Positions 10,914 to 52,255 of a stretch of 56,392 bases of DNA are shown one piece after another. The DNA comes from Dehalococcoidia bacterium (lineage in GTDB: Bacteria; Chloroflexota; Dehalococcoidia; DSTF01; JACRBR01). Below the pieces are notes generated by a model. That model searched no databases. It was not told where the DNA came from and was given only the letters and a program-made list of their open reading frames with translations. The DNA lies in NCBI GenBank assembly GCA_021462855.1, contig JAJTXQ010000003.1:1-56392 (forward strand), written 5' to 3'. Made by a program: the position numbers and the translations under genes. Within the stretch, counting starts at the first letter, position 1. Every line of letters starts with the position of its first letter.

Positions 10914-10995
10914 GCTGCGCCTCCGTTCGTGAGAGAGCGTCATTGTAGGAGCCGTGCGCGCCACGCGCGATCTGGGTCTAAGCGCGGGATTCCCG

Positions 10996-11001
10996 TAGAA
11001 C
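10996..11001 (+). promoter_or_regulatory. -10 element for a leaderless transcript (EamA gene)
   Basis: TAGAAC is followed by 6 nt and then the ATG at 11008, with no ribosome site between. The -35 region is weak. Confidence 0.5.
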
Positions 11002-11007
11002 GGGCGC

Positions 11008-11871
11008 ATGTCGTTGCTTGCGCTCTCGTTCCTGCTCGCGGCCGCGGTGTGTCACGCGTCGTGGAACTACATCGCCAAGGGGCTGCGGTCGAGCAGCGAA
11101 GTGACGTTCGCGATCGTGCTGTGCTCGGCGCTTGCGACGCTCGTGCCGGCGGCGATCGTCGTCGCGTGGACGCGCCCGTCGCTCGGCGCCGACGCCGTGG
11201 GGTTCATGGCCGTGAGCGCGTGCATCCACACCGGCTACTTCTACCTGCTGTTCCAGGGCTACCGCGCCGGCGACCTGTCCCTCGTGTACCCGCTGTCGCG
11301 CGGCACGGGGCCGCTGTTCGCCGTCATCGGCGCGGTCGTCATCCTCGGCGAGCGGCCGACGCCGCTGGCGATCGCGGGCGCTGCGCTGATCATCACCGGG
11401 GTGCTCGTGATCTCGGCGCCGCGCGACATGGCGCGCATCGTCGACGCGCGGCCTTCGATCATCTTCGCGCTGGCGACGGGCGTGACGATCGCCACGTACA
11501 CGCTGTGGGACAAGGAGGGCGTCTCGCGCTCGAGCCCGGTGCTGTACAGCCTGGGCACCGACGTCTTCCGCCTGCTGATCCTGGCGCCGGCCGTGCTCGC
11601 CACCGCACGCTCGCGGACCGCGCTTGCGTCGACGTTGCGCGATGACGGCCGCGCGGTCGCCACGATCGGCATGCTGACGCCGCTCGCGTACATCCTCGTG
11701 CTCGCCGCGCTGAACGCGTCGCAGGTGAGCTACGTGGCGCCCGCGCGGGAGGTGAGCATCCTGTTCGGCACGTTGCTCGGGTTGCGCCTGCTCGCGGAGC
11801 CGCACCCCGGCCAGCGGCTCGCCGGCGCGGCGATGATCGTCGCCGGCGTCATCGCGCTGGCGCTCGGCTAG
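11008..11871 (+). CDS. EamA/DMT-superfamily transporter
   Basis: 287 residues and almost wholly hydrophobic, with about ten predicted membrane segments in two EamA repeats (about 1-135 and 150-287). The Pro-rich PLSRGTGPLFAVIGAVVILGERP block and the ILFGTLLGLRLLAEPHPGQRLAGAAMIVAGV block are the two copies of the EamA signature. Members export amino acids or other small metabolites; the substrate is not predictable. Its stop codon and that of the converging gene share the palindrome CTAG (11868-11871). Confidence 0.9.
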   Translation: MSLLALSFLLAAAVCHASWNYIAKGLRSSSEVTFAIVLCSALATLVPAAIVVAWTRPSLGADAVGFMAVSACIHTGYFYLLFQGYRAGDLSLVYPLSRGTGPLFAVIGAVVILGERPTPLAIAGAALIITGVLVISAPRDMARIVDARPSIIFALATGVTIATYTLWDKEGVSRSSPVLYSLGTDVFRLLILAPAVLATARSRTALASTLRDDGRAVATIGMLTPLAYILVLAALNASQVSYVAPAREVSILFGTLLGLRLLAEPHPGQRLAGAAMIVAGVIALALG

Positions 11872-22130: not shown

Positions 22131-22505
22131 TTGCCGTTCGAGGCCCTGCTCGAGAACTACCTCGCGGTCTTCCTGGCGACGATCGTCGGCACCATTCTCG
22201 TCGCGACGGCGCTCATCGGGACGCGCATCCTCGCCCCGTACTCGAAAGACCGGGCAAAGGTGACGTCGTACGAGTGCGGCATGGTGCCAATAGGCCGCAC
22301 GCGCGCCCAGATCCACGTCCGATACTACCTGTTCGCCATCCTGTTCCTGATATTTGATGTCGAGGCGATCTTCCTGTTCCCGTGGGCGGTGAATGTCGCG
22401 CAGGCGAGCCACTCGGCGTTCTGGGCGATGGTCCTGTTCATTGGCATCCTCGCGGCCGGGCTCGGCTACGCGTGGCGGAAGGGGGTACTCCAGTGGAACC
22501 GGTAG
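22131..22505 (+). CDS. nuoA: NADH-quinone oxidoreductase subunit A
   Basis: 124 residues from TTG 22131. Three membrane segments; the loop [21 protein letters not shown] and the [11 protein letters not shown] motif are diagnostic of complex I subunit A. It lies at the junction of the membrane and peripheral arms near the quinone site. It is first of the eleven-gene operon; nuoB starts inside its end (13-bp overlap). Confidence 0.96.
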
Positions 22506-23092
22506 CCGAAACCACCACGACACCTTCGACCCCCGAAACGCCGCCCGCGGCGCCACAGCGCGAGCAGACGGGCATCGAGCGCGAGCAGGAGCGGCTGACG
22601 CCGGTGCCGTTCGTCCCGGGCAAGTCGTTCTATCGTCAGGTCCTGCCCGGCATCATCTCGGTGCCGGCCGATGCGGTGCTCGCGGTCTCGCGCAAGTCGT
22701 CGCTCTGGCCGATGACGTTCGGGCTTGCCTGCTGCGCGATCGAGATGATCGCGACGTTCATGGCGCACAACGACCTCGACCGGCTCGGCATCGTCCCGTG
22801 GCCGTCGCCCCGGCAGTCCGACGTGATGATCGTCTCCGGCACGGTGACGAAGAAGATGGCGCCGGCGGTGAAGCTGCTGTACGAACAGATGCCGAACCCG
22901 AAGTGGGTGATCGCCATGGGCGCCTGCGCCACCAACGGCGGGCCCTACTCGCGCTACGACCGCGTGATGCAGGGTGTCGACAAGATCATCCCGGTGGACG
23001 TGTATGTCCCCGGGTGCCCACCGCGCCCCGAGGGGCTGATCGACGGGTTCCTGGCGCTCCAGGCGAAGATCATGGAAGAGCGCAGCATCTAG
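22493..23092 (+). CDS. nuoB: NADH-quinone oxidoreductase subunit B
   Basis: 199 residues from GTG 22493, overlapping nuoA. It holds cluster N2, the last iron-sulfur centre before quinone. Its four ligands are seen: the Cys pair in LACCAIEM, the Cys in MGACATNGG and the Cys in [10 protein letters not shown]. An N-terminal extension of about 40 residues rich in Thr, Pro and Glu precedes the conserved core. The stop is immediately followed by the nuoC start. Confidence 0.97.
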
Positions 23093-23794
23093 ATGGCGCA
23101 AGACCCGCAGAGCCCCGACGAGCAGAAGCAACCGGACGCGAAGGACGCAGCCGCCGAAACGGCGCCGGCGGCGCCTGAAGGCGCGCCCGCGGCGAAGGCG
23201 GCGAAGCCAGCGGCGGAGCGCCCGGCGCGACCGGCGAAGGAAGCCGAGCCGAAGACGGCGCCGCGCGAGACGCCGCCGCCGGGCAGCCTGAACGAGGTCA
23301 TCGCGGCGGCGCTGCCGGATGTCAGCATCGCGGCGGCGTACATGGTGCCGGCGGTCAGCGGCGAGGCCGTGGCAATCGAGTTGAAGCGCGACGACGTGCC
23401 GGCGGTGCTGCAGGTCTGCCGCGACGACGCCCGCCTGGCGATGGACTATCTGCGCTGCCTGTCCGGCGTCGACTGGCAGGAGGAGGGGCTGGAGGTCGTG
23501 TACCACCTCTGGTCGTTCGAGAAGCGCCACGAACTCACGGTGAAGACGCGCGTGACCTACGAGGACGCCGTCGTGCCATCGGTCGCCGCGATCTACCCGG
23601 CGGCGGACTGGCACGAGCGTGAGGCGCGCGACATGTTCGGCATCGCCTTCAGCGGCCACCCGAACCTGGTGCCTTTGCTTCTGCCCGATGATATGACTGA
23701 CCACTTCCCGCTCCGAAAGGACATCCCGCTGCAGGAGATCGAGGAATGGCAGGGCGAAAACCTGCGCGAGGGCGCGGGCGAGGGCGAGGAATAG
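23093..23794 (+). CDS. nuoC: NADH-quinone oxidoreductase subunit C
   Basis: 233 residues, with no gap after nuoB. Residues 1-62 are an Ala/Pro/Lys/Glu-rich low-complexity extension not found in most NuoC proteins. The core (about 63-233) has the 30-kDa subunit motifs LVYHLWSFEKRHELTVKTRV (approximately, with an E-V-V start) and the hallmark WHEREARDMFGIAFSGHPNL, ending in FPLRKDIPL. It is part of the peripheral arm. The next gene, nuoD, is separate, not fused. Confidence 0.96.
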   Translation: MAQDPQSPDEQKQPDAKDAAAETAPAAPEGAPAAKAAKPAAERPARPAKEAEPKTAPRETPPPGSLNEVIAAALPDVSIAAAYMVPAVSGEAVAIELKRDDVPAVLQVCRDDARLAMDYLRCLSGVDWQEEGLEVVYHLWSFEKRHELTVKTRVTYEDAVVPSVAAIYPAADWHEREARDMFGIAFSGHPNLVPLLLPDDMTDHFPLRKDIPLQEIEEWQGENLREGAGEGEE

Positions 23795-24922
23795 ATGGTC
23801 GCAGAACAGCGCCCCGACCTCGAAACGATCGACATGCCGATCAACATGGGGCCGCAGCACCCCAGCACGCACGGCGTGTTTCGCATGGTGCTCGTCGTCT
23901 CGGGCGAGAAGGTCGTCGACGTCACGCCGCACATTGGCTACATGCACCGCGGCGGCGAGAAGCTGATGGAGACGATGGACTTCCGCCAGGGCATCGGCTA
24001 CGCCGACCGCACGGAGTACCTGGCGCAGTTCAGCGCCGAGCTCGGGTACGTGCTCGCCGTCGAGCGGCTGATGGGGGTGGAGGTGCCGGAGCGCGCGGAG
24101 TACATCCGCGTGATCCTCACCGAGCTGAACCGGCTCACGAGCCACTTCATGTTCGCCGGCGCGTTCGGCATCGACTCGGGGCTGTTCGGCACGAGCATGA
24201 TGTTCGCCTTCCGCGAACGGGAGTTCATCCAGGACCTGTTCGAGGAGATCTCCGGCGACCGCCTGATGTACGCCTACTTCCGCGTCGGCGGGCTGGCGTG
24301 GGAGGTGACCGACAACTTCGTCCAGCGCTGCCACGAGTCGCTGAAGACGGCGGAGCGCGGCATCCGCGACATCGATGACTTGCTGACGCACAACGAGATC
24401 TTCATGGGCCGCTGCCAGAACATCGGCGCGTTCACGGCGCAGCAGGCCATCGCCTACGGGCTCAGCGGGCCGATGCTGCGTGCGTCGGGCGTGCCGTTCG
24501 ACCTGCGCAAGGACGAGCCGTACTCGGTCTACCCGCGGCTGAAGTTCGACATCCCGGTCGGCAACTACGGCGACGTGTACGACCGCTTCCTGGTGCGCAT
24601 CGAGGAGATGCGCCAGTCGGTGAAGATCGTCGAGCAGGCGCTCGAGCAACTGCCGCCGGAAGGGCCGATCGTCGCCGAGAAGCTGCCGCGCCGCCTGCGC
24701 ACCCCGCCCGGCGAAGTGTACGCAAAGGTCGAATCGCCGCGCGGCGAGTGGGGCGTCTACCTCATATCGAAGGGGGGCGACAAGCCGTACCGGCTGAAGA
24801 TGCGCTCGCCTTCGTTCTGCAACCTTACGGCGCTGCGAGAGATGACGATCGGCCAGTTCCTGGCCGACGCGGTCATGGTATTAGGGTCGATGGATATCGT
24901 GCTCTGCGATGTGGACAGGTAG
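23795..24922 (+). CDS. nuoD: NADH-quinone oxidoreductase subunit D
   Basis: 375 residues, starting at the base after the nuoC stop. It forms the quinone-binding cavity with NuoB. Diagnostic motifs are MGPQHPSTHGVFR near the start, IGYMHRGGEKLME, LNRLTSHFMFAG and SPSFCNLTALREM near the C-terminus. It is related to the large subunit of NiFe hydrogenases but lacks the metal-binding Cys pairs, as expected for NuoD. Confidence 0.97.
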   Translation: MVAEQRPDLETIDMPINMGPQHPSTHGVFRMVLVVSGEKVVDVTPHIGYMHRGGEKLMETMDFRQGIGYADRTEYLAQFSAELGYVLAVERLMGVEVPERAEYIRVILTELNRLTSHFMFAGAFGIDSGLFGTSMMFAFREREFIQDLFEEISGDRLMYAYFRVGGLAWEVTDNFVQRCHESLKTAERGIRDIDDLLTHNEIFMGRCQNIGAFTAQQAIAYGLSGPMLRASGVPFDLRKDEPYSVYPRLKFDIPVGNYGDVYDRFLVRIEEMRQSVKIVEQALEQLPPEGPIVAEKLPRRLRTPPGEVYAKVESPRGEWGVYLISKGGDKPYRLKMRSPSFCNLTALREMTIGQFLADAVMVLGSMDIVLCDVDR

Positions 24923-26083
24923 ATGATGCGAGCCGTGATCCTGGCCGCGCCCTCGGTCGATGCGCTCGACAACCCGGCGCTCTCGGCGCTGCTCGGGCTG
25001 ATCGTGATCACGCTGATCATGACGCTCGGCGTCATGTTCGCGACGTGGTACGAGCGCAAGGCGGTGGCGCGCATGCAGCAGCGGCTCGGGCCGATGCGCG
25101 TCGGGCCGTGGGGGCTGCTGCAGCCGATCGCCGACACGCTGAAGCTCGTGTCGAAGGAGGGCGTGCGGCCGGCGTCGGCCGACCGCATCGCGTGGGACCT
25201 CTCGCTGGCGGCGATCTTCGTGCCGGCGTTCCTGGTGCTCGTCGCGATCCCGTTCACGGCGGACTGGTTCGTCAGCCCGATGGACCTGAGCCTGCTCTAC
25301 ATCCTCGCCGTCGGCGGCCTGTCGTTCATCGGCTTCCTGCTCGCGGGCTGGGGCTCCGACAACAAGTACGCGCTCCTCGGCGGCATGCGCGCCGCCGCGC
25401 AGCTCATCTCCTACGAGATCCCCATGATCCTGTCGATGCTCGCGGTCGTGATGGTCGTGGGCTCGGCCGATGTCTACCGGATCATCCTGTACCAGGACGT
25501 CGTGCCGCTCATCGTATGGCAGCCGCTGGCCTTCATCATCTTCCTGACGGCGACGATCGCCGAACTCGAGCGCCAGCCGTTCGACATCCCGACGGGCGAA
25601 TCCGAGGTGGCGGGCGGTGTGTTCATCGAGTACAGCGGCATCCGCTGGTCGCTGTTCCAGCTGACGGGCTACGTGAATATGTACGCCTACAGCCTGCTCG
25701 GCGCGTTCGTGTTTCTCGGCGGCTGGGAGTGGCCGTTCGGCACGGACATCGGCTGGGGGTACCAGTTGCTGCTGACGATGGTGAAGATGGCGCTGTTCAT
25801 CGTGTTCTTCCTGTGGGTGCGCACGTCGTTCCCGCGGCTGCGCGTCGACCAGTTAATGTCCTACGCGTGGAAGGTGCTGCTCCCGTTCGCGCTGGCGCAG
25901 ATCTTCCTGAACGGGCTCGTGCTCGTGTACGACCTGCCGGATGTCGTGCTGCTGGCCACGTCGGGCGGCGGTGCGCTGGCCCTGTGCTGGCTCGTGTACA
26001 GCGTCGTGCGCGTGAAGCCGCGACAGCCGCTGCGCATGGTCGGCAACGTGCCGGCAACGGCGCCGGGGAGCGTGTCCGGATGA
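24923..26083 (+). CDS. nuoH: NADH-quinone oxidoreductase subunit H
   Basis: 386 residues with eight or nine membrane spans; the start is an ATGATG right after nuoD. Key blocks are YERKAVARMQQRLGPMRVGP, AELERQPFDIPTGESEVAGG and FLWVRTSFPRLRVDQLMSYAWK. It links the quinone chamber to the proton-pumping arm. Its stop overlaps the nuoI start (ATGA). Confidence 0.97.
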   Translation: MMRAVILAAPSVDALDNPALSALLGLIVITLIMTLGVMFATWYERKAVARMQQRLGPMRVGPWGLLQPIADTLKLVSKEGVRPASADRIAWDLSLAAIFVPAFLVLVAIPFTADWFVSPMDLSLLYILAVGGLSFIGFLLAGWGSDNKYALLGGMRAAAQLISYEIPMILSMLAVVMVVGSADVYRIILYQDVVPLIVWQPLAFIIFLTATIAELERQPFDIPTGESEVAGGVFIEYSGIRWSLFQLTGYVNMYAYSLLGAFVFLGGWEWPFGTDIGWGYQLLLTMVKMALFIVFFLWVRTSFPRLRVDQLMSYAWKVLLPFALAQIFLNGLVLVYDLPDVVLLATSGGGALALCWLVYSVVRVKPRQPLRMVGNVPATAPGSVSG

Positions 26084-26544
26084 TCGGGATCCTCCGCAGC
26101 CTGGGGATGACAGCGCGCGTGGCCTTCCGCAAGCCGGTCACGAACTCGTATCCGAACGTGCACCGGCAGATCGCCAACCGCGACCGCGCCTTCCCGATCC
26201 TGTTGTGGGACGAGGAGCACGACGAGCCGTTTTGCACCGGCTGCCACGCCTGCGAGCGCGCCTGCCCCGTTGAGTGCATGACGGTGGTGATGAAGGACAA
26301 CCCGAAGCACGCCACGGGGGAAAGCAAGCGCCGGAAGATCATCGACGAATTCTGGATCGACTACGGCCGCTGCATGCGCTGCAACATCTGCGTCGAGGTG
26401 TGCAACTTCGAGGCGATTGGCATGAACAACACGTGGGCCGGCCACGAACTCTCTCGTTTCGACCGCTCGGAGCTGGTGATGGATTTGGACATGCTCTTGT
26501 CGCAGTCCAAAGCCGGGAAAGTGGATCCAGGCCTCAGGGCATGA
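26080..26544 (+). CDS. nuoI: NADH-quinone oxidoreductase subunit I
   Basis: 154 residues from ATG 26080, overlapping nuoH by 4 bp. Two ferredoxin-type cluster motifs: CTGCHACERACPVEC and CMRCNICVEVC, carrying N6a and N6b. The second motif is followed by Asn-Phe-Glu instead of the usual Pro. It is the entry point of electrons into the N2 chain; with no NuoEFG it may take electrons directly from a ferredoxin or another donor. Its stop overlaps nuoJ. Confidence 0.96.
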   Translation: MIGILRSLGMTARVAFRKPVTNSYPNVHRQIANRDRAFPILLWDEEHDEPFCTGCHACERACPVECMTVVMKDNPKHATGESKRRKIIDEFWIDYGRCMRCNICVEVCNFEAIGMNNTWAGHELSRFDRSELVMDLDMLLSQSKAGKVDPGLRA

Positions 26545-27035
26545 CACTGCTGTTCTTCTACGTCATGGCTGGCACGATTCTCGCGGGCGCACTGGGCGTG
26601 GTGCTCGTGCGGAATACCGTGTACGCCGCGCTGTTCCTGATCATGTCGCTGCTCGGCGTCGCCGGGTTGTACATCCTGCTGTCGTCGGAGTTCCTGGCGC
26701 TGGTGCAGGTGCTTGTGTACGGCGGCGCGGTGATGGTGCTGCTGGTGTTCGCGCTGATGCTCACGCGCGTGCACGAGCTCGACAAGAAGATGAGCGGCGA
26801 CCAGTGGCCGCTCGGCGCGGTCGCGGCGCTCGCGCTGCTCGGCGCGTTCATCGGCATGTGGACGCAGACTGACTGGCCGCGCGACCCCGACCAGGTCACG
26901 CTCGTGCCGTTCGCGACGATCGGCGACGCGCTGTTCAACCGCTGGTCGGTGCCGTTCGAGATCGTGTCGCTCGTGCTGCTCGTAGCGCTCGCCGGGGCTA
27001 TCATCATCGCGATGCAGGAAGAGGGGGAGCGCTAG
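26541..27035 (+). CDS. nuoJ: NADH-quinone oxidoreductase subunit J
   Basis: 164 residues from ATG 26541, overlapping nuoI (ATGA). Five membrane spans; the LLSSEFLALVQVLVYGGAVM block, with its pi-bulge-forming YGGAVMVL segment, is characteristic of NuoJ. The last span is followed by a charged end, and nuoK begins immediately after the stop. Confidence 0.95.
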   Translation: MTLLFFYVMAGTILAGALGVVLVRNTVYAALFLIMSLLGVAGLYILLSSEFLALVQVLVYGGAVMVLLVFALMLTRVHELDKKMSGDQWPLGAVAALALLGAFIGMWTQTDWPRDPDQVTLVPFATIGDALFNRWSVPFEIVSLVLLVALAGAIIIAMQEEGER

Positions 27036-27362
27036 TTGGAAGCGGTATGGGCTGACATCCCGCTGGAGCACTTCCTCGTGCTGAGCGGCATGCTCTTCTG
27101 CATCGGCGTGTACGGCGTGCTGTCGCGCCGCAACGCCATCCTGGTGCTGATGTCAGTCGAGCTGATGCTCAACGCCGTGAGCATCAACATGGTGGCGTTC
27201 GCGGTGTACACCGCGCCGACGCTGTTCATCGGCATCATCTTCACCGTGTTTATCATCGCCATCGCCGCGGCGGAGGTCGGGCTCGCGCTCGGCGTTGTGC
27301 TGCGCGTATTCCGGAACCGCGGGACCGCGAACGTCGACGAAGTAAGCGCGCTGAAATGGTGA
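27036..27362 (+). CDS. nuoK: NADH-quinone oxidoreductase subunit K
   Basis: 108 residues from TTG 27036, directly after the nuoJ stop. Three membrane spans with the two conserved proton-channel Glu residues, in [13 protein letters not shown] and [12 protein letters not shown]. Its length is normal for the family. No separate ribosome site is needed if coupled to nuoJ. Confidence 0.95.
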
Positions 27363-27402
27363 GCGCGCTGCGCACAGGCCGGGGGAGGTAATCATCAGCG
27401 GA

Positions 27403-29310
27403 TTGGGCATGGACGACGCGTGGCTGCTGCCGGCGATCCCGGTCGCCGCGTTCGTCATCCTCCTCCTCACCAGCCAGTACCTGCCGCGGCGCGGTGACTG
27501 GGTCGCCATCATCGGCATGGCGGCCGCGTTCGCGATCGTGTTCCCGATCGGGAAAGACGTCGCCGACGCCATCGGCGCTGGCGAGTTCCACGGCAGCGCG
27601 CGCTCGTGGCAATGGCTCGAAATCCCCGGCTACATCGAGATCCGCATGGGCACGTTCGTCGACCAGATCACGCTCGTGATGCTGTTCTGCGTGACGCTCG
27701 TCGCGTTGCTCGTGATGATCTACTCCACCGGGTACATGCACGGCGACAGGCGGTACGGCTGGTTCTACGCCGTGATCTCGCTGTTCGTCGCTTCGATGCT
27801 CGGGCTGGTGCTCGCGGACAACCTGCTGCTGCTCTACTTCTCGTGGGAGCTCGTCGGCCTCTGCTCGATGCTGCTGATCGGCTACTACAACGACCGTCAG
27901 TCCGCGGCCGAGGCGGCGAAGAAGGCATTCGTCACAACGCGCATCGGCGATGTCGGGCTGCTGATCGGCATCATCATCCTGTTCACGCAGACAGGCACGT
28001 TCAACATCGGCGAGATCCTGCACGCGGCGGAGGCGGGCGACATCCAGCGCGAGTGGCTGACGGCGGCCGCGGTATGCGTGCTGGCCGGCGCCGTCGGCAA
28101 GTCGGCGCAGTTCCCGCTGCACGTCTGGCTCCCGGACGCCATGGAAGGCCCGACGCCGGTGTCCGCGCTGATCCACGCCGCGACGATGGTCGTCGCCGGC
28201 GTCTACCTCGTCGCGCGCATGCTGCCGCTGTTCGAAGTCGTGCGCGGGATGCCGGAGCTGATCACCGCGCTCGGCCTGACGACGACGATGCTCGCGGCAT
28301 TCATGGGGCTCGCGCAGCGCGACATTAAGCGGGTGGTCGCCTACTCGACGCTGAACAGCCTCGGGCTGATGTTCGTCGCGCTCGGGTCGGGCGCGGTCGG
28401 CGCGGCGATGCTGTACCTGTTCGCGCACGCCTTCTTCAAGGCGCTCCTGTTCCTCGCCTCGGGATCGGTGATCCACGCGACGGAGGAGCAGGAGGTCGAC
28501 AAGCTCGGCGGGCTGTGGGGCAAGCTGCCGCTGACCGCGCCTGCGTTCGTCATCGGCGCGCTGGCGATGGCCGGCCTCGTGCCGCTGTCCGGCTTCTGGG
28601 CGAAGGATGAGATCCTCGTCGGCGTCGACCACGGCCACCTGACGCCGATCGTGCTGTGGACGCTGATCGTCAGCCTGCCGATCACGGCGCTGTACATGAC
28701 GCGCGTGGTGATGCTGACGTTCTTCGGCGAACCAAAGGATCACCATGTGCACGAGCACGCGCACGAATCCGCGCCGGTGATGACGATGCCGCTGCTGTTG
28801 CTGGCCGTGCTGGCCGTCGTCAGCGGCTTCGTCGTGTTCGAGGGCGTGGGCGAGGCGCTGGGCTTCCACAGCGGCTGGCTCGGGTTCATCTTCAATGAGG
28901 CGGAGGGCCCGCACCACTTCGAGGTGCAGTGGGGCCTGACGATCCTCTCCGTGGTGCTGGTGGTCGCGGGGATCGTGGGCGGCGTGTGGTTCTGGGGCGG
29001 GCGCGCCGAACCCGCGCGGCGCGCGGGCGCGTTCTCGCCGTTCTTCTACCGCATGTTCCTTAACCGCTTCTACTTCGACGAGGTCTACCAGTTCGCCATC
29101 GATAAGGTCGTGCTCGCCGCGGGACGCGTCGTCGCGGTGTTCGACCGCGTCGTGGTAAACGACACCGGCGTGAACGGCCCGGGCGAGGCGACGGACTTCG
29201 CGGCGTCCCTCGGCAAGCGCCAGCAGACGGGGTTGTTGCCGAACTACGCGCTGGCGATCGTCGTCGGCATCGTCGTGATCGCCGCGGTGGCCTTCGGGTA
29301 CCGCGGCTAG
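27403..29310 (+). CDS. nuoL: NADH-quinone oxidoreductase subunit L
   Basis: 635 residues from TTG 27403; an ATG at 27409 is the alternative. A gggggagg site lies 14-20 nt upstream, longer than usual. It is an antiporter-like proton-pumping subunit with the conserved blocks WELVGLCSMLLIGYY, HVWLPDAMEGPTPVSALIHAATMVVAG and the lateral helix region at the C-terminus. A His-rich loop, DHHVHEHAHES, lies near residue 450. The C-terminal 150 residues form the amphipathic lateral helix and last span. A short gap of 40 bp separates it from nuoK, the only notable gap in the operon besides the 12 bp before nuoM. Confidence 0.96.
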   Translation: MGMDDAWLLPAIPVAAFVILLLTSQYLPRRGDWVAIIGMAAAFAIVFPIGKDVADAIGAGEFHGSARSWQWLEIPGYIEIRMGTFVDQITLVMLFCVTLVALLVMIYSTGYMHGDRRYGWFYAVISLFVASMLGLVLADNLLLLYFSWELVGLCSMLLIGYYNDRQSAAEAAKKAFVTTRIGDVGLLIGIIILFTQTGTFNIGEILHAAEAGDIQREWLTAAAVCVLAGAVGKSAQFPLHVWLPDAMEGPTPVSALIHAATMVVAGVYLVARMLPLFEVVRGMPELITALGLTTTMLAAFMGLAQRDIKRVVAYSTLNSLGLMFVALGSGAVGAAMLYLFAHAFFKALLFLASGSVIHATEEQEVDKLGGLWGKLPLTAPAFVIGALAMAGLVPLSGFWAKDEILVGVDHGHLTPIVLWTLIVSLPITALYMTRVVMLTFFGEPKDHHVHEHAHESAPVMTMPLLLLAVLAVVSGFVVFEGVGEALGFHSGWLGFIFNEAEGPHHFEVQWGLTILSVVLVVAGIVGGVWFWGGRAEPARRAGAFSPFFYRMFLNRFYFDEVYQFAIDKVVLAAGRVVAVFDRVVVNDTGVNGPGEATDFAASLGKRQQTGLLPNYALAIVVGIVVIAAVAFGYRG

Positions 29311-29322
29311 GGCAGAGGGAAG

Positions 29323-30825
29323 ATGGAATCGGGTTACTGGCTGATCGCGACCGTCGCCATCCCGCTGATCGCGGGCGGTGTGATGGTGCTCATCCCCGAC
29401 GAGCGCAAGGACGTCGTCCGCTGGGTCAGCGCGGCGGTCGGGGCGGTGCTGTTCGCCATCTCCACGTACGTCTTCTTCATGTACGAGGTCGGCGGCGACC
29501 AGTACCAGTTCTTCATCCGCTGGGCGTGGCTCGAGGACGTCGGCTTCCTGGGCGAGAACGGCATCTCGCTTGCGTTCGGCATCGACGGCATCGCCGCGCC
29601 GATGGTGCTGCTGACGGGCGTCGTCGCGTTCGGCGGCGCGCTGATCTCGTGGAAGATCGAGCACCACAACAAGGACTTCTTCGCGCTGTTCTGGGTGCTG
29701 GTGTCGGGCGTGTACGGCACGTTCACGGCGCTCGACCTGTTCTTCTTCTTCTTCTGGTACGAGGTCGCGGTGCTGCCCATGTACCTGCTGATCGCCGTGT
29801 GGGGATCGAGCAGCGTGTTCCCGACGTTCGCGCGCACCAAGGAATACAGCGCGATGAAGCTCACGATCATGCTGGTGTCGGCATCGATCCTCATCTTCAT
29901 CGGTATCTTCGCCGTGTTCCACGAGGCGGGCGCCGGCACGTTCGATCTGCAGACGCTGTACGCGTACCAGTTCGACCCGCGCTTCCAGAAGATCGTCTTC
30001 CCGCTGTTCGTCATCGGCTGCGGCGTGCTGGCCGGCCTGTGGCCGTTCCACACGTGGTCACCCGACGGTCACGTTTCGGCGCCGACCGCCGTGTCGATGC
30101 TGCACGCGGGCGTGCTGATGAAGCTCGGCGCGTTCGGCATCATCCGCCTCGGCATCCAGCTGTTGCCGGAGGGCGCGACGTTCTGGATGCCCGGGCTGAT
30201 GATCCTGGCGACGGCGAACGTGGTGTACGGCGCGTTCGCGGCGACGGCGCAGCGCGACTTCAAGTACATGATCGGGTACTCGTCGGTGAGCCACATGGGT
30301 CTCGTGCTGATGGGCCTCGCGACGATGAACGTGATCGGCGTCAACGGCGCGGTGCTGCAAATGTTCTCCCACGGGGTCATGACGGCGATGTTCTTCGCCA
30401 TGGTCGGCTCGGTGTATGACCAGGCGCACACGCGCGACATGACGCTGTTCAGCGGGCTCGTGCACCGCATGCCGCTGTTCGTGTTCTTCTTCGGCATCGC
30501 GGGGCTCGCGTCGCTCGGGCTGCCCGGGCTGTCGGGGTTTATCGCCGAGTTCCACGTGTTCGGCGGCGCGTTCCGCACGTACCCGTGGGCAGGCGCGCTC
30601 GGCATCTTCGCCGCGGCGATGACGGCGGTGTACATCCTCCGCATGATGTCGATGTCGTTCTTTGGCCAGTTCAACGAGCAATGGTCGGGCCTGCAGGAGA
30701 TGACCTTGCTCGAGCGCGGCACCGCGGCGCTGCTGCTCGGTTTCATGCTCTTCATGGGCCTGTGGCCGGCGCCGTTCATCGACCGCATCCAGGAAAGCGT
30801 GCGTAACCTGCCGGGAGTTTCATGA
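29323..30825 (+). CDS. nuoM: NADH-quinone oxidoreductase subunit M
   Basis: 500 residues, 14 predicted spans. It shows the antiporter-like features ALDLFFFFFWYEVAVLPMYLLI with the key Glu, WPFHTWSPDGHVSAPTAVSM and YSSVSHMGLVLMG. The ribosome site aggg lies before ATG 29323. Its stop overlaps nuoN (ATGA). It pumps protons in the middle of the membrane arm. Confidence 0.96.
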   Translation: MESGYWLIATVAIPLIAGGVMVLIPDERKDVVRWVSAAVGAVLFAISTYVFFMYEVGGDQYQFFIRWAWLEDVGFLGENGISLAFGIDGIAAPMVLLTGVVAFGGALISWKIEHHNKDFFALFWVLVSGVYGTFTALDLFFFFFWYEVAVLPMYLLIAVWGSSSVFPTFARTKEYSAMKLTIMLVSASILIFIGIFAVFHEAGAGTFDLQTLYAYQFDPRFQKIVFPLFVIGCGVLAGLWPFHTWSPDGHVSAPTAVSMLHAGVLMKLGAFGIIRLGIQLLPEGATFWMPGLMILATANVVYGAFAATAQRDFKYMIGYSSVSHMGLVLMGLATMNVIGVNGAVLQMFSHGVMTAMFFAMVGSVYDQAHTRDMTLFSGLVHRMPLFVFFFGIAGLASLGLPGLSGFIAEFHVFGGAFRTYPWAGALGIFAAAMTAVYILRMMSMSFFGQFNEQWSGLQEMTLLERGTAALLLGFMLFMGLWPAPFIDRIQESVRNLPGVS

Positions 30826-32270
30826 CCGAGGGATTGAACTTCGACTACACGGTCTTCATCCCGGAGTTCCTGCTCCTCGGGCTCGCCGCGGCGATCGTCG
30901 CGCTGGACCTGGCGTACCCGGCGATCCGCAAGCAATGGCTGGCATACATCGCCGGTTGCGGGCTGCTGGCGACCGCCGGCGTCTCGCTCGCGTGGATCGA
31001 CGTCGAGACGAACTTCGCGGATCTCGTCGTGGTCGACAACTACCTGACGTACTTCCGCGTGTTCTTCATGGTCATCGCCGCCGTCGTCGCGTTCGCCTCG
31101 GCCGACCTCGTGGCGCAGCGGCTGAAGCACCCGGGTGAGTACTACGGCCTGATCATTGTGTCCACCGTCGGAGCGATCGGGATGGCGGGTGCGCGTGAGC
31201 TGATGACGGCGTACCTGTCGCTCGAGCTGCTGAGCTTCAGCCTGTACATCCTTGTCTCGTACGCGAAGTTCGACCGCCGCTCGAACGAGGCGGGCATGAA
31301 GTACATCCTGCTCGGCGCGTTCTCGTCGGCGATGTTCCTCTACGGCATGAGCCTGATCTACGGGATCACCGGCACGACGTATTACAGCGGCATCGCCGCG
31401 GCGCTCGGCGAGCGGGCGACCGACTTCGAGTGGGCGCTGCTGATGGGCCTGGTGCTGATGATCGCGGGCATCGGCTTCAAGATCGCGGCGGTGCCGTTCC
31501 ACATGTGGACGCCCGACGCGTACGAAGGGGCGCCCGTCGCCGTCACGGCGTACCTGGCGACGACGTCGAAGGCGGCCGGCTTCGCGTTCGTGCTGCCGCT
31601 GTTCAGCAACGCCTTTCAGGTCGTGCACGATGACTGGAGCTGGATGCTCGCCGGCATGGCCGCCGCGACGATGATCCTCGGCAACGTGGTCGCGCTGCAG
31701 CAGCGCAACATCAAGCGGCTGATGGCGTACTCATCGATCGGGCAGGTCGGCTATCTGCTCATGGGCGTCGCCGCCCTGTCGCACGCGAGCGCGTCGGCGC
31801 TGGTGCTGCACCTCACCGGCTACATGGTGTCGAACCTCGCGCTGTTCGTCGTGATCATCGCCTGGGTGCACATGAACGACAGCGAGGAGATCGCCGACTT
31901 CCGCGGCATGCGCGAGCGCGCGCCGCTGCTCGCCGGCGTGCTCGCGGGCGCGCTGTTCTCGCTTGCCGGCCTGCCGCTGTTCGCCGGCTTCGTCACGAAG
32001 TTCATCCTGTTCCAGGCGGCGACCGATGATGGCTATCTGTGGCTCGCGGCGATCGGCGTCACGACGAGCGTGATCTCGCTGTACTACTACCTGCAGGTCA
32101 TGCGCGAAGCGTTCGTCAGCGCGCCGGCCGAAGGCGCCGGGCCGTTGCCGGTGCCGCTGCTGATGCGCGGCCTCGCCGTCGCGATGATGCTCGGCGTGTT
32201 CTACGTCGGCCTGTATCCGCAGCAGCTGTTCGACGCGATCGACAACGCGACGCGCTTCCTCTTCGTCTGA
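30822..32270 (+). CDS. nuoN: NADH-quinone oxidoreductase subunit N
   Basis: 482 residues with about 14 spans, the third antiporter-like subunit. It has TAYLSLELLSFSLYILVSY with the conserved Glu, VPFHMWTPDAYEGAPVAVTAY, and AYSSIGQVGYLLMG. It overlaps nuoM by 4 bp and ends the operon. No clear hairpin terminator follows within the 91 bp before the converging GNAT gene. Confidence 0.96.
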   Translation: MTEGLNFDYTVFIPEFLLLGLAAAIVALDLAYPAIRKQWLAYIAGCGLLATAGVSLAWIDVETNFADLVVVDNYLTYFRVFFMVIAAVVAFASADLVAQRLKHPGEYYGLIIVSTVGAIGMAGARELMTAYLSLELLSFSLYILVSYAKFDRRSNEAGMKYILLGAFSSAMFLYGMSLIYGITGTTYYSGIAAALGERATDFEWALLMGLVLMIAGIGFKIAAVPFHMWTPDAYEGAPVAVTAYLATTSKAAGFAFVLPLFSNAFQVVHDDWSWMLAGMAAATMILGNVVALQQRNIKRLMAYSSIGQVGYLLMGVAALSHASASALVLHLTGYMVSNLALFVVIIAWVHMNDSEEIADFRGMRERAPLLAGVLAGALFSLAGLPLFAGFVTKFILFQAATDDGYLWLAAIGVTTSVISLYYYLQVMREAFVSAPAEGAGPLPVPLLMRGLAVAMMLGVFYVGLYPQQLFDAIDNATRFLFV

Positions 32271-45924: not shown

Positions 45925-48900
45925 GTGCCAGACCCGAACGCACGGCGCGCGAGCAGGCGCCAGATCCTCGCCTCGTTCCCGGCGCTGCTCGCCGGCGTAG
46001 GCGCCGCCGGCTTCCTCAACCCGACGCCGGCGTTTTCGTTCCTGAAACCGTTGCCACAGCAGGAGAACCCGCTCGAGTCGTACCCCGAGCGCGGCTGGGA
46101 GGGCATCTACCGCGACCTCTACACGCCCGACTCGAATTTCCATTATCTGTGCGCCCCAAACGACACGCACGGCTGTCTGCTCAAGGCGAACGTGAAGAAC
46201 GGCGTCGTCGTCTACGCCGACCCGAGCTTCGGATACAACGGCGCGGTCGACGCCTACGGCAACCAGGCGTCGGCGCGCTGGGACCCGCGCGTCTGCATCA
46301 GCGGCCTCGCATACGTGCGCCGCTTCTACTCCGACCGCCGCACGAAGGGCCCGATGATCCGAAAGGGCTTCAAGCAGTGGGTGGAGGATGGCTTCCCGCG
46401 CGGGGAGGACGGCCTGCCGCCGAAGAAGTACCTCGAAGGGCGCGGCAAGGAGGAGTTCGAGCGCGTCGAATGGGACGAAGCGTGGGAGACGATCGCCCGC
46501 ACGCTGATCAACATCGCCCAGACGTACACCGGCGAAGAGGGTAAGGAACGCCTCGAAAGGCAAGGCTACGACGAGGCGATGATCGAGACGTTGCACGGCG
46601 CCGGCACGCAGACGCTGAAGGCGCGCGGCGGCATGCCGCTCATCCAGCCGATCCGCGCAGCGGGGTTGTACCGTCTGCAGGGATCGATGGCGCTCCTTGA
46701 CGCGCACATTCGCGGCGTCGGGCCGGACGAGGCGCTGGGCGGGCGGCAATGGGACAGCTACTCGTGGCACACTGACCTGCCGCCGGGCCACCCGATGGTC
46801 ACAGGCCAGCAGTCGCTCGACTTCGACCTCTACACGGCGGAGAACGCGAAGCTTGTCACGCTCTGGGGCAAGAACTGGATCGCGACGAAGATGCCCGACG
46901 GGCACTGGCTGACCGAGGCGAAGCTCCACGGCGCCAAGGTCGTGACGATCGCGCCGGAGTACCAGTCATCGAGCTCGAAGGCCGACGAGGTGATCGTCAT
47001 CCGGCCGGGCAGCGACTCCGCATTAGCATTCGGGCTCGCGCAGGTGATCATCCGCGAGAAGCTGTATGACGCCGATTTCGTGAAGCGGTCGACGGATCTG
47101 CCGCTCCTCGTGCGCATGGATACGCTCAAGCTGCTCCGCCCGCGCGACCTCGACGCCGCGGCGCCGCTCGGCGCGCTCACCAACACCACGCGCCTGTACC
47201 AGGAGGGTGAGAAGCCGCCAGCGGCGGCCGCGCAGAGCGGGCAGTACGTCCCGCAGGCGCTGCGCGAGGAGTGGGGCGATTTCATGGTGTGGGACGCGCG
47301 TACGTCGGCGCCGGCGGCCGTGACGCGCGATCAGGTCGGGCAGTTCTTCGCTGACACGGGCATCGATCCCGCGCTCGAGGGCGAGTTCAGCGTGAAGCTG
47401 GCGGACGGCGCGACCGCCGCCGTACGGCCGGTGTTCGACCTCGTGAAGCAGTACCTCGACGCGTCGTGCACGCCGGAGCAGATCTCGAAGGTCTGCTGGG
47501 CGCCCGTCGAGGCGATCGAGTCTCTCGCCCGGAGAATCGCCGCAAACCAGAAGTCGACGTTGTTCGTCGAGGGCATGGGGCCGAACCACTTCTTCAACAA
47601 CGATGTGAAGGACCGCGCGATCATCCTCGTCGCGTCGCTCACGAACAACGTCGGGCATTTCGGCGGCACCGTGGGCAGCTACTCCGGCAACTATCGCCTC
47701 GGCCTGTTCGGTGGCATCTCGCAGTGGACGGGCGAGAACCCGTTCGAGATCGAGCTCGACCCGAGCAAGCCGGCGAACACCAAGTCGTATTACAAGGGCG
47801 AGTCGGCGCACTACTACAACTACGGCGACCGCCCGCTGCGCGTAGGCAACAAGCTGTTCACTGGCAAGACGCACCTGCCGACGCCGACGAAGTCCGTGAT
47901 CCTCTCCAACTCGAACTCGATCCTCGGCAACGCCAAGTGGGCGTACAACGTGATCATGAACACGCTGCCAAAGATCGAGATGTTCGTCGCGTCCGACTGG
48001 TTCTGGACGGCGACGTGCGAGTACGCCGACATCGTGCTGGCCGCCGACCCGTGGAGCGAGCGCAAGAAGCCGGATATCTACGCCGCGGTGAGCAACCCGT
48101 TCCTCCAGGCGTGGGTCCGCTCGCCGCTGCCGCGCACGTACGACACGCACGACGACATGGAGTCGTGGGCGGGCATCTGCGCCAAGCTGGCAGATATCAC
48201 CGGCGACCAGCGCTTCCGCGATTACTGGAAGTTCGTGCACGAAGATAACGTCGAGGCGTACATCAACCGCGTGTTCCAGGCCGGCAACACGACGCGCGGT
48301 TACACGTTCCAGATGCTCGACGACGCCTGCGAGCGCGGCACGCCGCTGTACTCGATGGCGCGCACGAGCCCGCGCATCGTCGGCTGGGAGCAGACCCAGG
48401 AAAGCAAGCCCTGGTACAACCGCACCGGCCGCCTCGAGTTCTACCGCGAGGAAGACGAGTTCATCGAGTACGGCGAGAACCTGCCGGTGCACCGCGAACC
48501 GTCCGACGGGACGCCGTATGAGCCCAACGTCATCATGGCGAGGCCGCACCCGGCGCTGAAGCCGGTCGGACCGGAAGCCTACGGGCTCGACGTCAACGAC
48601 ATGCGCACCGAGGTGCGGCAGGTGCGTAATGTCGTCCGCACGCCGGAGGAGCTCGCCCAGAGCAAGCACCCCCTGAGGGCGCAAGGCTACTCGCACGTGC
48701 TCATCACGCCGAAGTACCGCCACGCCTGCCACAGCACCGGCGCGAGCACCGACTACGACGTCGTGATGTGGGGGCCGTATGGCGACTTCTACCGCCACGA
48801 CAAGCGCAAGCCGTGGGTCAGCGAGGGGTACATCGACCTGAACCCCGAGGACGCGAAGGAGCTCGGCGTCGAGGACGGCGACTACGTGTGGTGCGACGGC

Positions 48901-49404
48901 GACCCGGAAGATCGCCCATTCGTCGGTCACCAGGACCGGCCGGACGATTACAAGGTGACGCGCTGGCTCGTCCGCGTGCGCTACTACCCGAGCATCGCGC
49001 GGGGGATCGGGCGCGCCTGGTTCCACTTCTACATCGGCACGCACGGCAGTGTCGAAGGGCACGAGACGCGCGCCGACGGCCTCGCCAAGAACCCGCGCAC
49101 GGGCTACCAGTCGGGCTACCGCTACGGGAGCCACCAGGCGATCACGCGCGCCTGGCTGCGGCCGACGCTCCAGACCGACAGCCTGATCCGCAAGGATCCG
49201 AACGGCCAGACCATCGGCAAGGGGTTTGCGCTCGACGTGCACTGCACCGTGGGCGCGCCGAAGGAGTCGTTCGTGAAGATGGAGAAGGCCGAGGACGGCG
49301 GCATCGATGGCGAGGGGCTGTGGCAGCCCGCATCGCAGGGCTACCGCCCGGGTTACGAGAACGACGAGATGCGCGCGTACCTCTCCGGTGAGCTGATCAA
49401 GTAG
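45925..49404 (+). CDS. Molybdopterin oxidoreductase alpha subunit, type II DMSO-reductase family (CISM), Tat-exported
   Basis: 1159 residues from GTG 45925, with ggagg upstream. The Tat signal SRRQIL (10-15) precedes a hydrophobic stretch to about residue 30, so it folds with cofactor in the cytoplasm and is then exported. Aligned with NarG, the FS0 ligand positions read C76, D80, C84 and C124 (NarG: His, Cys, Cys, Cys). The molybdenum ligand D284 lies in WHTDLPP, matching NarG Asp222. Molybdopterin-binding blocks include VTLWGKNWIATKMPDGHWLTE and FVASDWFWTATCEYADIVLA. NarG, EbdA, SerA and NXR-like enzymes share this family; which reaction it carries out is not decided by the sequence. It is followed by beta, gamma and TorD-like genes. 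Confidence 0.92.
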   Translation: MPDPNARRASRRQILASFPALLAGVGAAGFLNPTPAFSFLKPLPQQENPLESYPERGWEGIYRDLYTPDSNFHYLCAPNDTHGCLLKANVKNGVVVYADPSFGYNGAVDAYGNQASARWDPRVCISGLAYVRRFYSDRRTKGPMIRKGFKQWVEDGFPRGEDGLPPKKYLEGRGKEEFERVEWDEAWETIARTLINIAQTYTGEEGKERLERQGYDEAMIETLHGAGTQTLKARGGMPLIQPIRAAGLYRLQGSMALLDAHIRGVGPDEALGGRQWDSYSWHTDLPPGHPMVTGQQSLDFDLYTAENAKLVTLWGKNWIATKMPDGHWLTEAKLHGAKVVTIAPEYQSSSSKADEVIVIRPGSDSALAFGLAQVIIREKLYDADFVKRSTDLPLLVRMDTLKLLRPRDLDAAAPLGALTNTTRLYQEGEKPPAAAAQSGQYVPQALREEWGDFMVWDARTSAPAAVTRDQVGQFFADTGIDPALEGEFSVKLADGATAAVRPVFDLVKQYLDASCTPEQISKVCWAPVEAIESLARRIAANQKSTLFVEGMGPNHFFNNDVKDRAIILVASLTNNVGHFGGTVGSYSGNYRLGLFGGISQWTGENPFEIELDPSKPANTKSYYKGESAHYYNYGDRPLRVGNKLFTGKTHLPTPTKSVILSNSNSILGNAKWAYNVIMNTLPKIEMFVASDWFWTATCEYADIVLAADPWSERKKPDIYAAVSNPFLQAWVRSPLPRTYDTHDDMESWAGICAKLADITGDQRFRDYWKFVHEDNVEAYINRVFQAGNTTRGYTFQMLDDACERGTPLYSMARTSPRIVGWEQTQESKPWYNRTGRLEFYREEDEFIEYGENLPVHREPSDGTPYEPNVIMARPHPALKPVGPEAYGLDVNDMRTEVRQVRNVVRTPEELAQSKHPLRAQGYSHVLITPKYRHACHSTGASTDYDVVMWGPYGDFYRHDKRKPWVSEGYIDLNPEDAKELGVEDGDYVWCDGDPEDRPFVGHQDRPDDYKVTRWLVRVRYYPSIARGIGRAWFHFYIGTHGSVEGHETRADGLAKNPRTGYQSGYRYGSHQAITRAWLRPTLQTDSLIRKDPNGQTIGKGFALDVHCTVGAPKESFVKMEKAEDGGIDGEGLWQPASQGYRPGYENDEMRAYLSGELIK

Positions 49405-49412
49405 GTGATGTG

Positions 49413-50552
49413 ATGGCAAAGGTCTTCAACTGGCAACTCAACCGCGAGATGACGTACCGCTTCGAGGAGGCGCGGCCGCAGCGGCAGGCCGGGGCGGTCT
49501 TCGACACGAACAAGTGCATCGCCTGCCAGACGTGCACGATGGCGTGCAAGACGACGTGGACGTCGGGCAAGGGCCAGGAGTTCATGTTCTGGAACAACGT
49601 CGAGACGAAGCCCTGGGGCTCGTACCCGATGGCGTGGGACGTGAAGATCCTCAACACGCTCGGCGCGCAGTCGTGGGATGGCAACACGTACACCGGCAAG
49701 ACGATCTTCGAGTCGGCGGAGCAGGGCGAATACCACGTCGGCTACCTGCCCGATGACATGGACTACGCCGGCCCGAACCGCGGCGAGGACGAACTGAGCT
49801 CCGTGATGTCGGAGGAGAAGTTCTACCTGAAGATGCCGCACGACGCGTGGTTCTTCTACCTGCCGCGCATCTGCAACCACTGCACGTACCCGGCGTGCCT
49901 GCAGTCCTGCCCGCGCACGTCGATCTACAAGCGGCCGGAGGACGGCATCGTGCTGCTCGACCAGTCGCGCTGCCGCGGCTACCGCGAGTGCGTGCGCGCC
50001 TGCCCGTACAAGAAGGTGATGTACAACCACGTCACGCGCGTGTCTGAAAAGTGCGTGCTGTGCTATCCCGCCGTCGAGAAGGGCGTGCAGACGCGCTGCA
50101 TGCGCACCTGCATCGGCAAGATCCGCACGTTCGGCTTCGTCAGCCCGCCCGACAAGGTGCGCGAGGACAACCCGGTGGACTTCCTCGTGCACGTGCGCAA
50201 GGTGGCGCTGCCGCTGCTGCCGCAACTCGGCCTTGAGCCGAACATCTACTACATCCCGCCGATCCACGTCGGCAGCCAGGCGTTCCTGCGGATGATGTTC
50301 GGCCCCGGCGCCGAGCAGGCCGTCGCGACCTACAAGAACGCGATGGAAGGCAACGACCCGGAGCTGCTCGGCGTGCTGATGCTCAACGTTTCGACGGACC
50401 GGATCATCCACAAGTTCAACGTCAGCAATGGCCAGGTCGCCGGCTTCGGCGAAAACGGCCAGGAGCTCGTGCGCGTGCCGCTCAAGGAACCGACGATCGT
50501 GCGGCCGGCGTTCGACCCGACCCTGGCCGTGTATCGCTACAACACCGCGTAG
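49413..50552 (+). CDS. Molybdoenzyme beta subunit with four iron-sulfur clusters (NarH/EbdB-like)
   Basis: 379 residues from ATG 49413 (a GTG at 49410 is in frame), with aggtga upstream. Cluster-binding Cys are C35, C38, C41, C45; C154, C157, C162, C166; C187, C193, C197 with Tyr190 at the fourth place, suggesting a [3Fe-4S] centre as in NarH; and C214, C217, C229, C233. The start VFDTNKCIACQTCTMACKTTW and FFYLPRICNHCTYPACLQSCP are typical of NarH/EbdB. It carries electrons from the alpha subunit to the gamma haem. It has no signal and probably rides with alpha through the Tat system. Confidence 0.95.
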   Translation: MAKVFNWQLNREMTYRFEEARPQRQAGAVFDTNKCIACQTCTMACKTTWTSGKGQEFMFWNNVETKPWGSYPMAWDVKILNTLGAQSWDGNTYTGKTIFESAEQGEYHVGYLPDDMDYAGPNRGEDELSSVMSEEKFYLKMPHDAWFFYLPRICNHCTYPACLQSCPRTSIYKRPEDGIVLLDQSRCRGYRECVRACPYKKVMYNHVTRVSEKCVLCYPAVEKGVQTRCMRTCIGKIRTFGFVSPPDKVREDNPVDFLVHVRKVALPLLPQLGLEPNIYYIPPIHVGSQAFLRMMFGPGAEQAVATYKNAMEGNDPELLGVLMLNVSTDRIIHKFNVSNGQVAGFGENGQELVRVPLKEPTIVRPAFDPTLAVYRYNTA

Positions 50553-50564
50553 ACGGAGGCAGCC

Positions 50565-51509
50565 ATGACACTCGAACCACTGCAGCGGCGGATTGGCAGG
50601 CGCAAGCTCATCGCGGGCGCCGCCGGCGGCGCGATGGCCGTGGGCGCGGCGGCGATCGTCGGCTGCGGCGACGATGACAACGGGCCGGCGCCCGACTGGG
50701 CGGGCCGCGTCGTCTCGAAGTTCATCCGCGACGACGTGCCGATTGAGAACCCGCGCGCGTCGCTGTGGGGCAGCGCGCCGAAGGTCGAAGTGCCCATGCA
50801 GCCGCAGGCGTCGGCATTGCCCGTGCGGATGCAGCCCAGCGTGCCGAGCATCCGCGTCTGCTCGCTCAACGATGGCAAGCGCATCGGCTTCATGCTCGAG
50901 TGGGCGGACCCGCAGCGCGACGAGAAGGTGGTCAAGACGCCCGAGTTCAAGGACGGATGCGGTGTCCTCCTCGGTCCGCCGGAGGTTCCGGCGACCTACT
51001 TCATGATGGGCGTCGCGGACATCGCGGCCAGCATCATGCACTGGCGCGCCGACTGGCAGAAGGACGTCGACGACGGGTTCCAGGACCTCGAGACGGGGTT
51101 CCCGAACGTGGCGTTCGACTTCTATCCGCCGCTGGTCGATGCGCCGCGCCCGCTCGTCGTCTCGGAGGACTACCCGGAGGCCGGCCGGCCGTGGCTGCCG
51201 GGAATGAACGCAGGCAACCCGCTCTCTCAGCCGAACAAGACGAGCGCCGTCGAGAAGCTGCTCGCGAACGGCCCCGGCACGATCACGCACATGGCGGTGC
51301 AGGACGCGATCGGCCGCGGCACGTGGAAGGATGGCGCGTGGCGCGTGGTGATCGCGCGCGACTTCGCCGCCTCGAACGAGGGCGAGATCGAGCTCAAGGG
51401 CGGCCAGGAGTACGCGCTGGCGTTCACCGTCTGGGCGGGGTCCGAGGGCGACCGCGGCTCGCGCAAGTCACCGAGCAACCTCGGCAAGCTGTTCATCGAG
51501 AACGCGTGA
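50565..51509 (+). CDS. Molybdoenzyme gamma subunit, EB_dh-type haem b protein with Tat-lipoprotein signal
   Basis: 314 residues from ATG 50565, with ggagg before it. The N-terminus RRIGRRKLIAGAAGGAMAV is a Tat-like signal; IVGC with C34 is a lipobox, so the mature protein would begin with a lipid-anchored Cys. The body matches the ethylbenzene-dehydrogenase haem-binding domain: SIRVCSLNDGKRIGFMLEWAD and IMHWRADWQKDVDDGFQDLE. Such proteins bind one haem b (Met and Lys ligands in EbdC) outside the membrane. If right, it anchors the complex to the outer leaflet. The stop and the next start share one base. Confidence 0.88.
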   Translation: MTLEPLQRRIGRRKLIAGAAGGAMAVGAAAIVGCGDDDNGPAPDWAGRVVSKFIRDDVPIENPRASLWGSAPKVEVPMQPQASALPVRMQPSVPSIRVCSLNDGKRIGFMLEWADPQRDEKVVKTPEFKDGCGVLLGPPEVPATYFMMGVADIAASIMHWRADWQKDVDDGFQDLETGFPNVAFDFYPPLVDAPRPLVVSEDYPEAGRPWLPGMNAGNPLSQPNKTSAVEKLLANGPGTITHMAVQDAIGRGTWKDGAWRVVIARDFAASNEGEIELKGGQEYALAFTVWAGSEGDRGSRKSPSNLGKLFIENA

Positions 51510-52255
51510 TGGGACAGGCAGCGACGAAAGCGCGCCGGACGGTCGAGCATCTGAAACTCACGGCGATCGCGTACCGCGGGTTGGGCCGTGCGCTGTCCGG
51601 CGACCCGCGCGACGCGTCGAGCACGCTCGGCGAGCTCGGCGCGTGCCTCGACGCGCTCGGCTGGCGCGCCGCAGCGGCGGAGATATCGCGCGCGCGCGAC
51701 GCCTTCGCCGCCGCGGCCGATGACGCCCGCACGCAGTACTCGCGCATCTTCCATCGCTCGCTGCCGCCGCCGTATGAGACGACGTACACATCGGGCGGCA
51801 GCGTGCGCGAGCTCGCGGACATCGCCGGGTTCTACCGCGCGTTCGGCATGGAGGCAAGCGGCGAGAAGTGCGACCACGTCGCGGCGGAGCTGGAGTTCCT
51901 GTCATATGTCGCGTTGAAGGAAGTGCACGCGCACGAGCAGTCGCAGCCCGAGCGGGCGGCCGTGAGCCGCGAGGCGCACGCGCGGTTCATCGTCGCGCAC
52001 GCGGGCACGTGGCTGCCGCTGTTTGCCGCGCAGATCGAGCGCGTCTCGTCCGAGGGCCCGTATGCGGGGGTCGTGCGGGCCGCGCACCTGGCGATCGCCG
52101 CCGATGCCGCGGACCTCGGCGTGAGCATGCCGCCGGTGGCCGTCTACGCCGCGAACCCCGACGCGATGCCCGGCCCGCCGGCCTCGCCCGACCGCCCCTA
52201 TTGCGGCGCGGACGAGGACCCCGACGGCGACGACGCGCCCCAAGTGGCGCCGTAG
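51509..52255 (+). CDS. TorD/NarJ-family molybdoenzyme-specific chaperone
   Basis: 248 residues from ATG 51509, overlapping the gamma stop by one base (TGATG). A helical protein with the family motif YSRIFHRSLPPPYETTY and the later FYRAFGMEASGEKCDHVAAELEFLSYVA, followed by the basic/acidic C-terminus. It corresponds to the delta subunit (EbdD, DdhD) that inserts the molybdenum cofactor and guards Tat export of alpha. It is cytoplasmic and is the last gene of the operon. Confidence 0.9.
   Translation: MGQAATKARRTVEHLKLTAIAYRGLGRALSGDPRDASSTLGELGACLDALGWRAAAAEISRARDAFAAAADDARTQYSRIFHRSLPPPYETTYTSGGSVRELADIAGFYRAFGMEASGEKCDHVAAELEFLSYVALKEVHAHEQSQPERAAVSREAHARFIVAHAGTWLPLFAAQIERVSSEGPYAGVVRAAHLAIAADAADLGVSMPPVAVYAANPDAMPGPPASPDRPYCGADEDPDGDDAPQVAP

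Follow-up and report, generated by a model that had tools for sequence, protein, structure and literature searches.

An Aspartate Among the Predicted FS0 Ligands of a Dehalococcoidia Nitrate/Nitrite Oxidoreductase, and Asp/Cys Exchange at the Same Position in Its Homologues

Gene content of the locus

The window (the whole stretch of DNA analyzed, 56,392 nucleotides of contig JAJTXQ010000003.1 from a Dehalococcoidia bacterium) encodes a 1159-residue catalytic molybdenum (alpha) subunit of the type II DMSO reductase family on its forward strand, at 45925–49404. The reading frame starts with a GTG codon at 45925, and the motif GGAGGTG is located upstream of it. The N-terminus features a Tat signal (ASRRQILASF) whose twin arginines are nearly invariant among homologues; from this signal, the alpha subunit is predicted to be Tat-exported. 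The protein was matched by the Pfam family Molybdopterin with 93 bits. The NCBIfam model DMSO_red_II_alp matched it below the cut-off of that model, and no NCBIfam equivalog scored above its cut-off; thus, no name was obtained from NCBIfam.

The beta subunit, with four Fe-S clusters (FS1–FS4), is encoded at 49410–50552 on the same strand. It was identified by its match to 7B04_A (E = 1.3e-115), by NCBIfam DMSO_red_II_bet and by Pfam Fer4_11, and its cysteine motifs match those of 7B04_A in the alignment. The gene for the heme b-containing gamma subunit follows at 50565–51509 (forward strand; Pfam EB_dh, 87.9 bits). Its residues M148 and K301 align with the heme ligands M155 and K305 of 7B04_C. 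An assembly chaperone of the TorD/NarJ type is encoded at 51506–52255, also on the forward strand (Pfam Nitrate_red_del, 57.1 bits; DMSO_red_II_cha). Judged from their sequence and arrangement, the alpha, beta, gamma and chaperone genes form one operon. The features that define the type II DMSO reductase family, i.e. an Asp on the molybdenum together with an Fe-S beta and a heme-b gamma partner in the operon, are all present, and the sequence places the alpha subunit in the NXR/periplasmic-Nar branch of this family.

The gamma subunit begins with a twin-arginine motif followed by a lipobox-like IVGC that ends the signal, and it is a probable Tat lipoprotein. Such a lipobox would anchor the complex by a lipid, not by a membrane helix. 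Similar gamma N-termini were seen in two relatives (L060, 11640–12551, LAAC; L062, near 10672–11592, VGGC), and the archaeal gamma subunits of L057 and L059 have a hydrophobic anchor. Elsewhere in the window, an apparent complex I (nuo) gene cluster was observed at 22382–32267, as judged from the predicted protein starts.

Among solved structures, the best match of the alpha subunit was the alpha subunit of Kuenenia NXR (7B04_B; E = 3.9e-282, residues 32–1159, 40% identity). The AlphaFold model of the alpha subunit had a mean pLDDT of 81.5 and a pTM of 0.85, and its top structural match was again 7B04 (TM-score 0.90 normalized by query, 0.93 by target). Perchlorate reductase and NarG aligned to the model with TM-scores of only about 0.6 by query.

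The FS0 ligand set of the alpha subunit

An initial annotation, made from the sequence alone, had proposed that the alpha subunit carries a variant set of FS0 ligands, Cys-x3-Asp-x3-Cys followed by a distant Cys. This pattern is real, and its limits (46150–46296) were exact. Counted from the GTG start, C76 is encoded at 46150–46152, N79 at 46159–46161, D80 at 46162–46164 and C84 at 46174–46176, all within the motif CAPNDTHGC (46150–46176, forward strand); C124, in the sequence DPRVC, is at 46294–46296 on the same strand. The correspondence with NarG, which had been drawn from a shared VKNG motif, was reproduced by phmmer: C76 aligns with H49, D80 with C53, C84 with C57 and C124 with C92, and the substrate-site residue N79 aligns with N52. 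When residues 49–151 were compared to solved structures, the highest score among NarG chains was that of the H49C mutant (3IR5), as expected if the alpha subunit has a Cys at the position of H49.

In the 2021 crystal structure of Kuenenia NXR (7B04), FS0 is held by C67, D71, C75 and C115 (PMC8387239). In this region, the window protein aligns to this chain without gaps, with C76, N79, D80, C84 and C124 corresponding to C67, N70, D71, C75 and C115. The suggestion that Asp is a cluster ligand is thus supported by a structure in which D71 binds FS0, and an Asp ligand of FS0 has already been published for Kuenenia NXR. By analogy to 7B04, coordination of FS0 by D80, along with the cofactor chain described below, is almost certain. 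The residue set found is 3 Cys + 1 Asp and not 3 Cys + 1 His, which at the sequence level is characteristic of the NXR/periplasmic Nar superclade. Confidence in the model is only moderate around C124 (block mean of 57), and the FS0 coordination in the window protein is deduced from homology. According to a 2021 study of ethylbenzene dehydrogenase (PMC8840923), conservation of the FS0 His ligand is apparently complete across subfamily II; this statement is contradicted by 7B04 and by the present alignments.

Conservation was assessed in 64 aligned homologues from both of the clades described below. Residues C76, N79, T81, H82, C84 and C124 were invariant, and the D80 column contained Asp in 57 sequences, Cys in the remaining seven, and nothing else. 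Among all loci with the motif (n = 141, counted with a regular expression in which N, T, H and C were fixed on either side of an unrestricted ligand position), 118 had Asp, 23 had Cys, and no other residue occurred. The loci that came from contig scans had been found with the pattern [DC] at the ligand position and are unusable for estimating the conservation of D80; the relatives from whole genomes were found by tblastn and are free of this bias.

The initial annotation had also considered D80 as a non-ligand, with H73 or a second histidine (numbered H83 there; the residue is H82) as the donor. In NarG and EbdA, FS0 does have a His ligand (PMC8387239), and H82 is invariant (64/64), but this arrangement is scarcely credible: the Kuenenia counterpart of H82 (H73) is absent from the 7B04 ligand list while D71 is present; at the position of window residue H73, relatives can have Thr, Val, Ala, Ser, Tyr or Ile instead (His in 17 of 46 window-clade members); and the sole natural substitute for D80 is Cys (23/141), as expected for a ligand position. 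Both His candidates were thus rejected.

The genome of the bacterium (3.0 Mb) contains about 15 further molybdopterin alpha subunits on contigs C6, C8, C9, C11, C13, C28 and C33 (L001–L008). Several of these feature a His-type FS0 motif, HCVDCYPSNC, in which an additional residue precedes the third ligand; this spacing resembles that of ethylbenzene and steroid dehydrogenases.

Clade placement and Asp/Cys exchange

In the phylogenetic analysis, the window alpha subunit was grouped with proteins of Methanoperedens and Thioploca/Thiomargarita in a clade of 46 rows (SH-aLRT 99). A separate clade of 18 rows (support 100) contained the NXRs of Kuenenia and Nitrospira, and in both trees the window protein was located outside of this NXR clade, in its sister clade. 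The proteins closest to it are L040 from Chloroflexota (70% identity) and proteins from Actinomycetota and Nitrososphaerota. The window clade covers many bacterial and archaeal phyla, to which the present protein adds a Chloroflexota member; the Asp ligand itself was known. No relatives of the alpha subunit were found on viral contigs. The proposal that the Asp variant may mark a subclade held in part: the variant does mark clades, but it marks the whole pair (NXR and its sister) and not a small subclade.

The sister clade of the Nitrospira/anammox NXRs has been described as containing putative Nars, the characterized Nar of Hydrogenobacter and the NxrA of Nitrotoga (PMC6050957). Based on the shared tree position, and with Nitrotoga and Hydrogenobacter placed as in that paper, the window clade is probably this published nitrate reductase/Nitrotoga clade. 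In another survey, NXRs were grouped with the nitrate reducers Methanoperedens and Thermogutta, and the direction was described as not assignable by sequence (PMC10732223).

The Cys forms of the D80 position, which would give FS0 four Cys ligands, fall into two groups. The first, in the NXR clade, comprises 15 proteins of one Chloroflexota family with the motif CAPNCTHNC (L021, L048, L179–L189, L192, L195). The second, in the window clade, comprises eight Nitrospirota proteins with the motif CTPNCTHNC (L147, L148, L153–L155, L198–L200). In a tree calculated after masking of the ligand residue, each group had a support of 100. Parsimony required at least two Asp/Cys changes on this masked tree and also on the first tree. 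Because the four-Cys forms are two subclades, one per main clade, Asp and Cys appear to have been exchanged at least twice at FS0. The beta gene adjoined the alpha gene in all seven loci checked. One genome (G600) has both an Asp copy (L149) and a Cys copy (L200), and both forms are also present in G734 and G710.

We tentatively interpret these forms as an evolutionary switch from Asp to Cys in two lineages, the Chloroflexota family of the NXR clade and the Nitrospirota of the window clade, in which an all-Cys FS0 was kept. As far as sequences can tell, this repeated switch is the new element, and it is less expected than the Asp ligand itself; no report of it was found in the open-access literature searched. 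An effect of the Asp ligand on the redox potential of FS0, also suggested in the initial annotation, was proposed without measurement in the 2021 structure paper, where the bearing of the ligand on potential or direction was raised as a question and not answered (PMC8387239). The natural Asp/Cys switches are ready pairs for testing whether the ligand sets either one. If FS0 is tuned by this ligand, the Asp/Cys difference would separate the enzymes according to the potential at which they work or the direction they favor.

In a separate observation, an alpha gene with 48% identity to that of the window was found on a plasmid of Natronococcus occultus (L038; NC_019976.1, 6001–9374), where it is absent from the gene table of the plasmid. 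This gene appears to be split by a frameshift after its FS0 motif, CTPNDTHNC.

Function and catalytic direction

The alpha subunit has the expected catalytic residues. D284 (46774–46776, forward strand) aligns with Kuenenia D275, for which the role of molybdenum ligand is taken from PMC8387239, and it is invariant in 69/69 alignment rows, outgroup included. N79 and K930, which are active-site positions in NXR, are also invariant among the aligned homologues. Fourteen alignment columns separate the window clade from the NXR clade. At one of these, T321 (46885–46887, forward strand) is NarG-like: Thr occurs in 46/46 members of the window clade, and Asn (Kuenenia N312) occurs in 18/18 members of the NXR clade. 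PMC12300631 includes this pair in its list of active-site differences. Likewise, M551 takes the place of NXR Glu527, with Met in 42 of the 46 window-clade sequences.

The complex is best regarded as a Tat-exported, outward-facing molybdenum nitrate/nitrite oxidoreductase, and most likely a respiratory nitrate reductase; the phylogeny and active-site residues (the clade mates and T321) favor nitrate reduction over nitrite oxidation with a probability of roughly 65%. Nitrate would be reduced at the Mo-bisMGD, with D284 on the molybdenum and N79 at the substrate. Electrons would pass between heme b of the gamma subunit and the molybdenum via FS4 to FS1 in the beta subunit and then FS0 in the alpha subunit, the last presumably bound by C76, D80, C84 and C124.

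The catalytic direction is not readable from sequence, and clade membership does not fix it, because the clade probably also holds the NxrA of Nitrotoga, a real nitrite oxidizer (PMC6050957). The same enzyme, with the same FS0, could thus run as an NXR of the periplasmic Nitrotoga type in a Chloroflexota nitrite oxidizer. This reading is considered unlikely, although several observations agree with it. Nitrotoga NxrA is reported alongside nitrate reductases in the sister clade (PMC6050957); the Tat signal of the alpha subunit implies a periplasmic orientation; the Met/Lys pair at the gamma heme b is linked to a high potential in Kuenenia NXR (PMC8387239); and the genome encodes two heme-copper terminal oxidases, which is compatible with aerobic nitrite oxidation. 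Against it stand the NarG-type T321, where all 18 NXR-clade proteins have Asn, the Met in place of Glu at M551, and the presence of nitrate users among the named clade mates. We know of no nitrite oxidizer in the exact subclade of the window protein. In the genome, the best match to NirK scored 166.9 bits (cut-off 296.3) and no NrfA was found, an outcome that neither supports nor excludes either direction. By inspection, the neighborhoods of L056, L058 and L060 contained no obvious nitrogen-cycle genes.

A substrate other than nitrate or nitrite (chlorate, selenate or a hydrocarbon) is highly improbable: the family does include perchlorate reductase and ethylbenzene dehydrogenase, which were matched at E = 3e-59 and 1e-37, but N79 and K930 are invariant, the residue equivalent to N79 is Ile in ethylbenzene dehydrogenase, and the similarity to NXR is far above that to any other solved enzyme.

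As a putative nitrate reductase, the window enzyme was compared to four known systems. With Kuenenia stuttgartiensis NXR (7B04; kustd1700/1703/1704) it shares the 3 Cys + 1 Asp set at FS0, the Asp ligand of molybdenum, the substrate Asn, the active-site Lys (917 in Kuenenia, 930 here), the beta cluster motifs and the gamma heme Met/Lys pair; it differs in its sequence (40% identity), its residues at Kuenenia positions 312 (Thr, not Asn) and 527 (Met, not Glu), its position in the sister clade, and its gamma subunit, a probable Tat lipoprotein. Like E. coli NarGHI, it has the same fold, electron route and FS0 ligands at aligned positions; unlike it, it lacks the 3 Cys + 1 His set (H49), the cytoplasmic location and the NarI membrane subunit, and the TM-score is about 0.6. 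The clade of Nitrotoga NxrA and Hydrogenobacter thermophilus periplasmic Nar is likewise sister to the Nitrospira/anammox NXRs and has a Tat-exported alpha subunit; it mixes nitrate reducers with one nitrite oxidizer, and its equivalence to the window clade is drawn from tree position (PMC6050957). The nitrate reductase of Candidatus Methanoperedens nitroreducens (L090) belongs to the same clade (55% identity) and has a Tat-like twin Arg and the FS0 motif CAPNDTHNC, but it is archaeal and lies in another subclade. In Methanoperedens, a laterally acquired nitrate reductase serves nitrate-dependent methane oxidation, and the tree in that same report labels the protein NxrA (PMC7327174).
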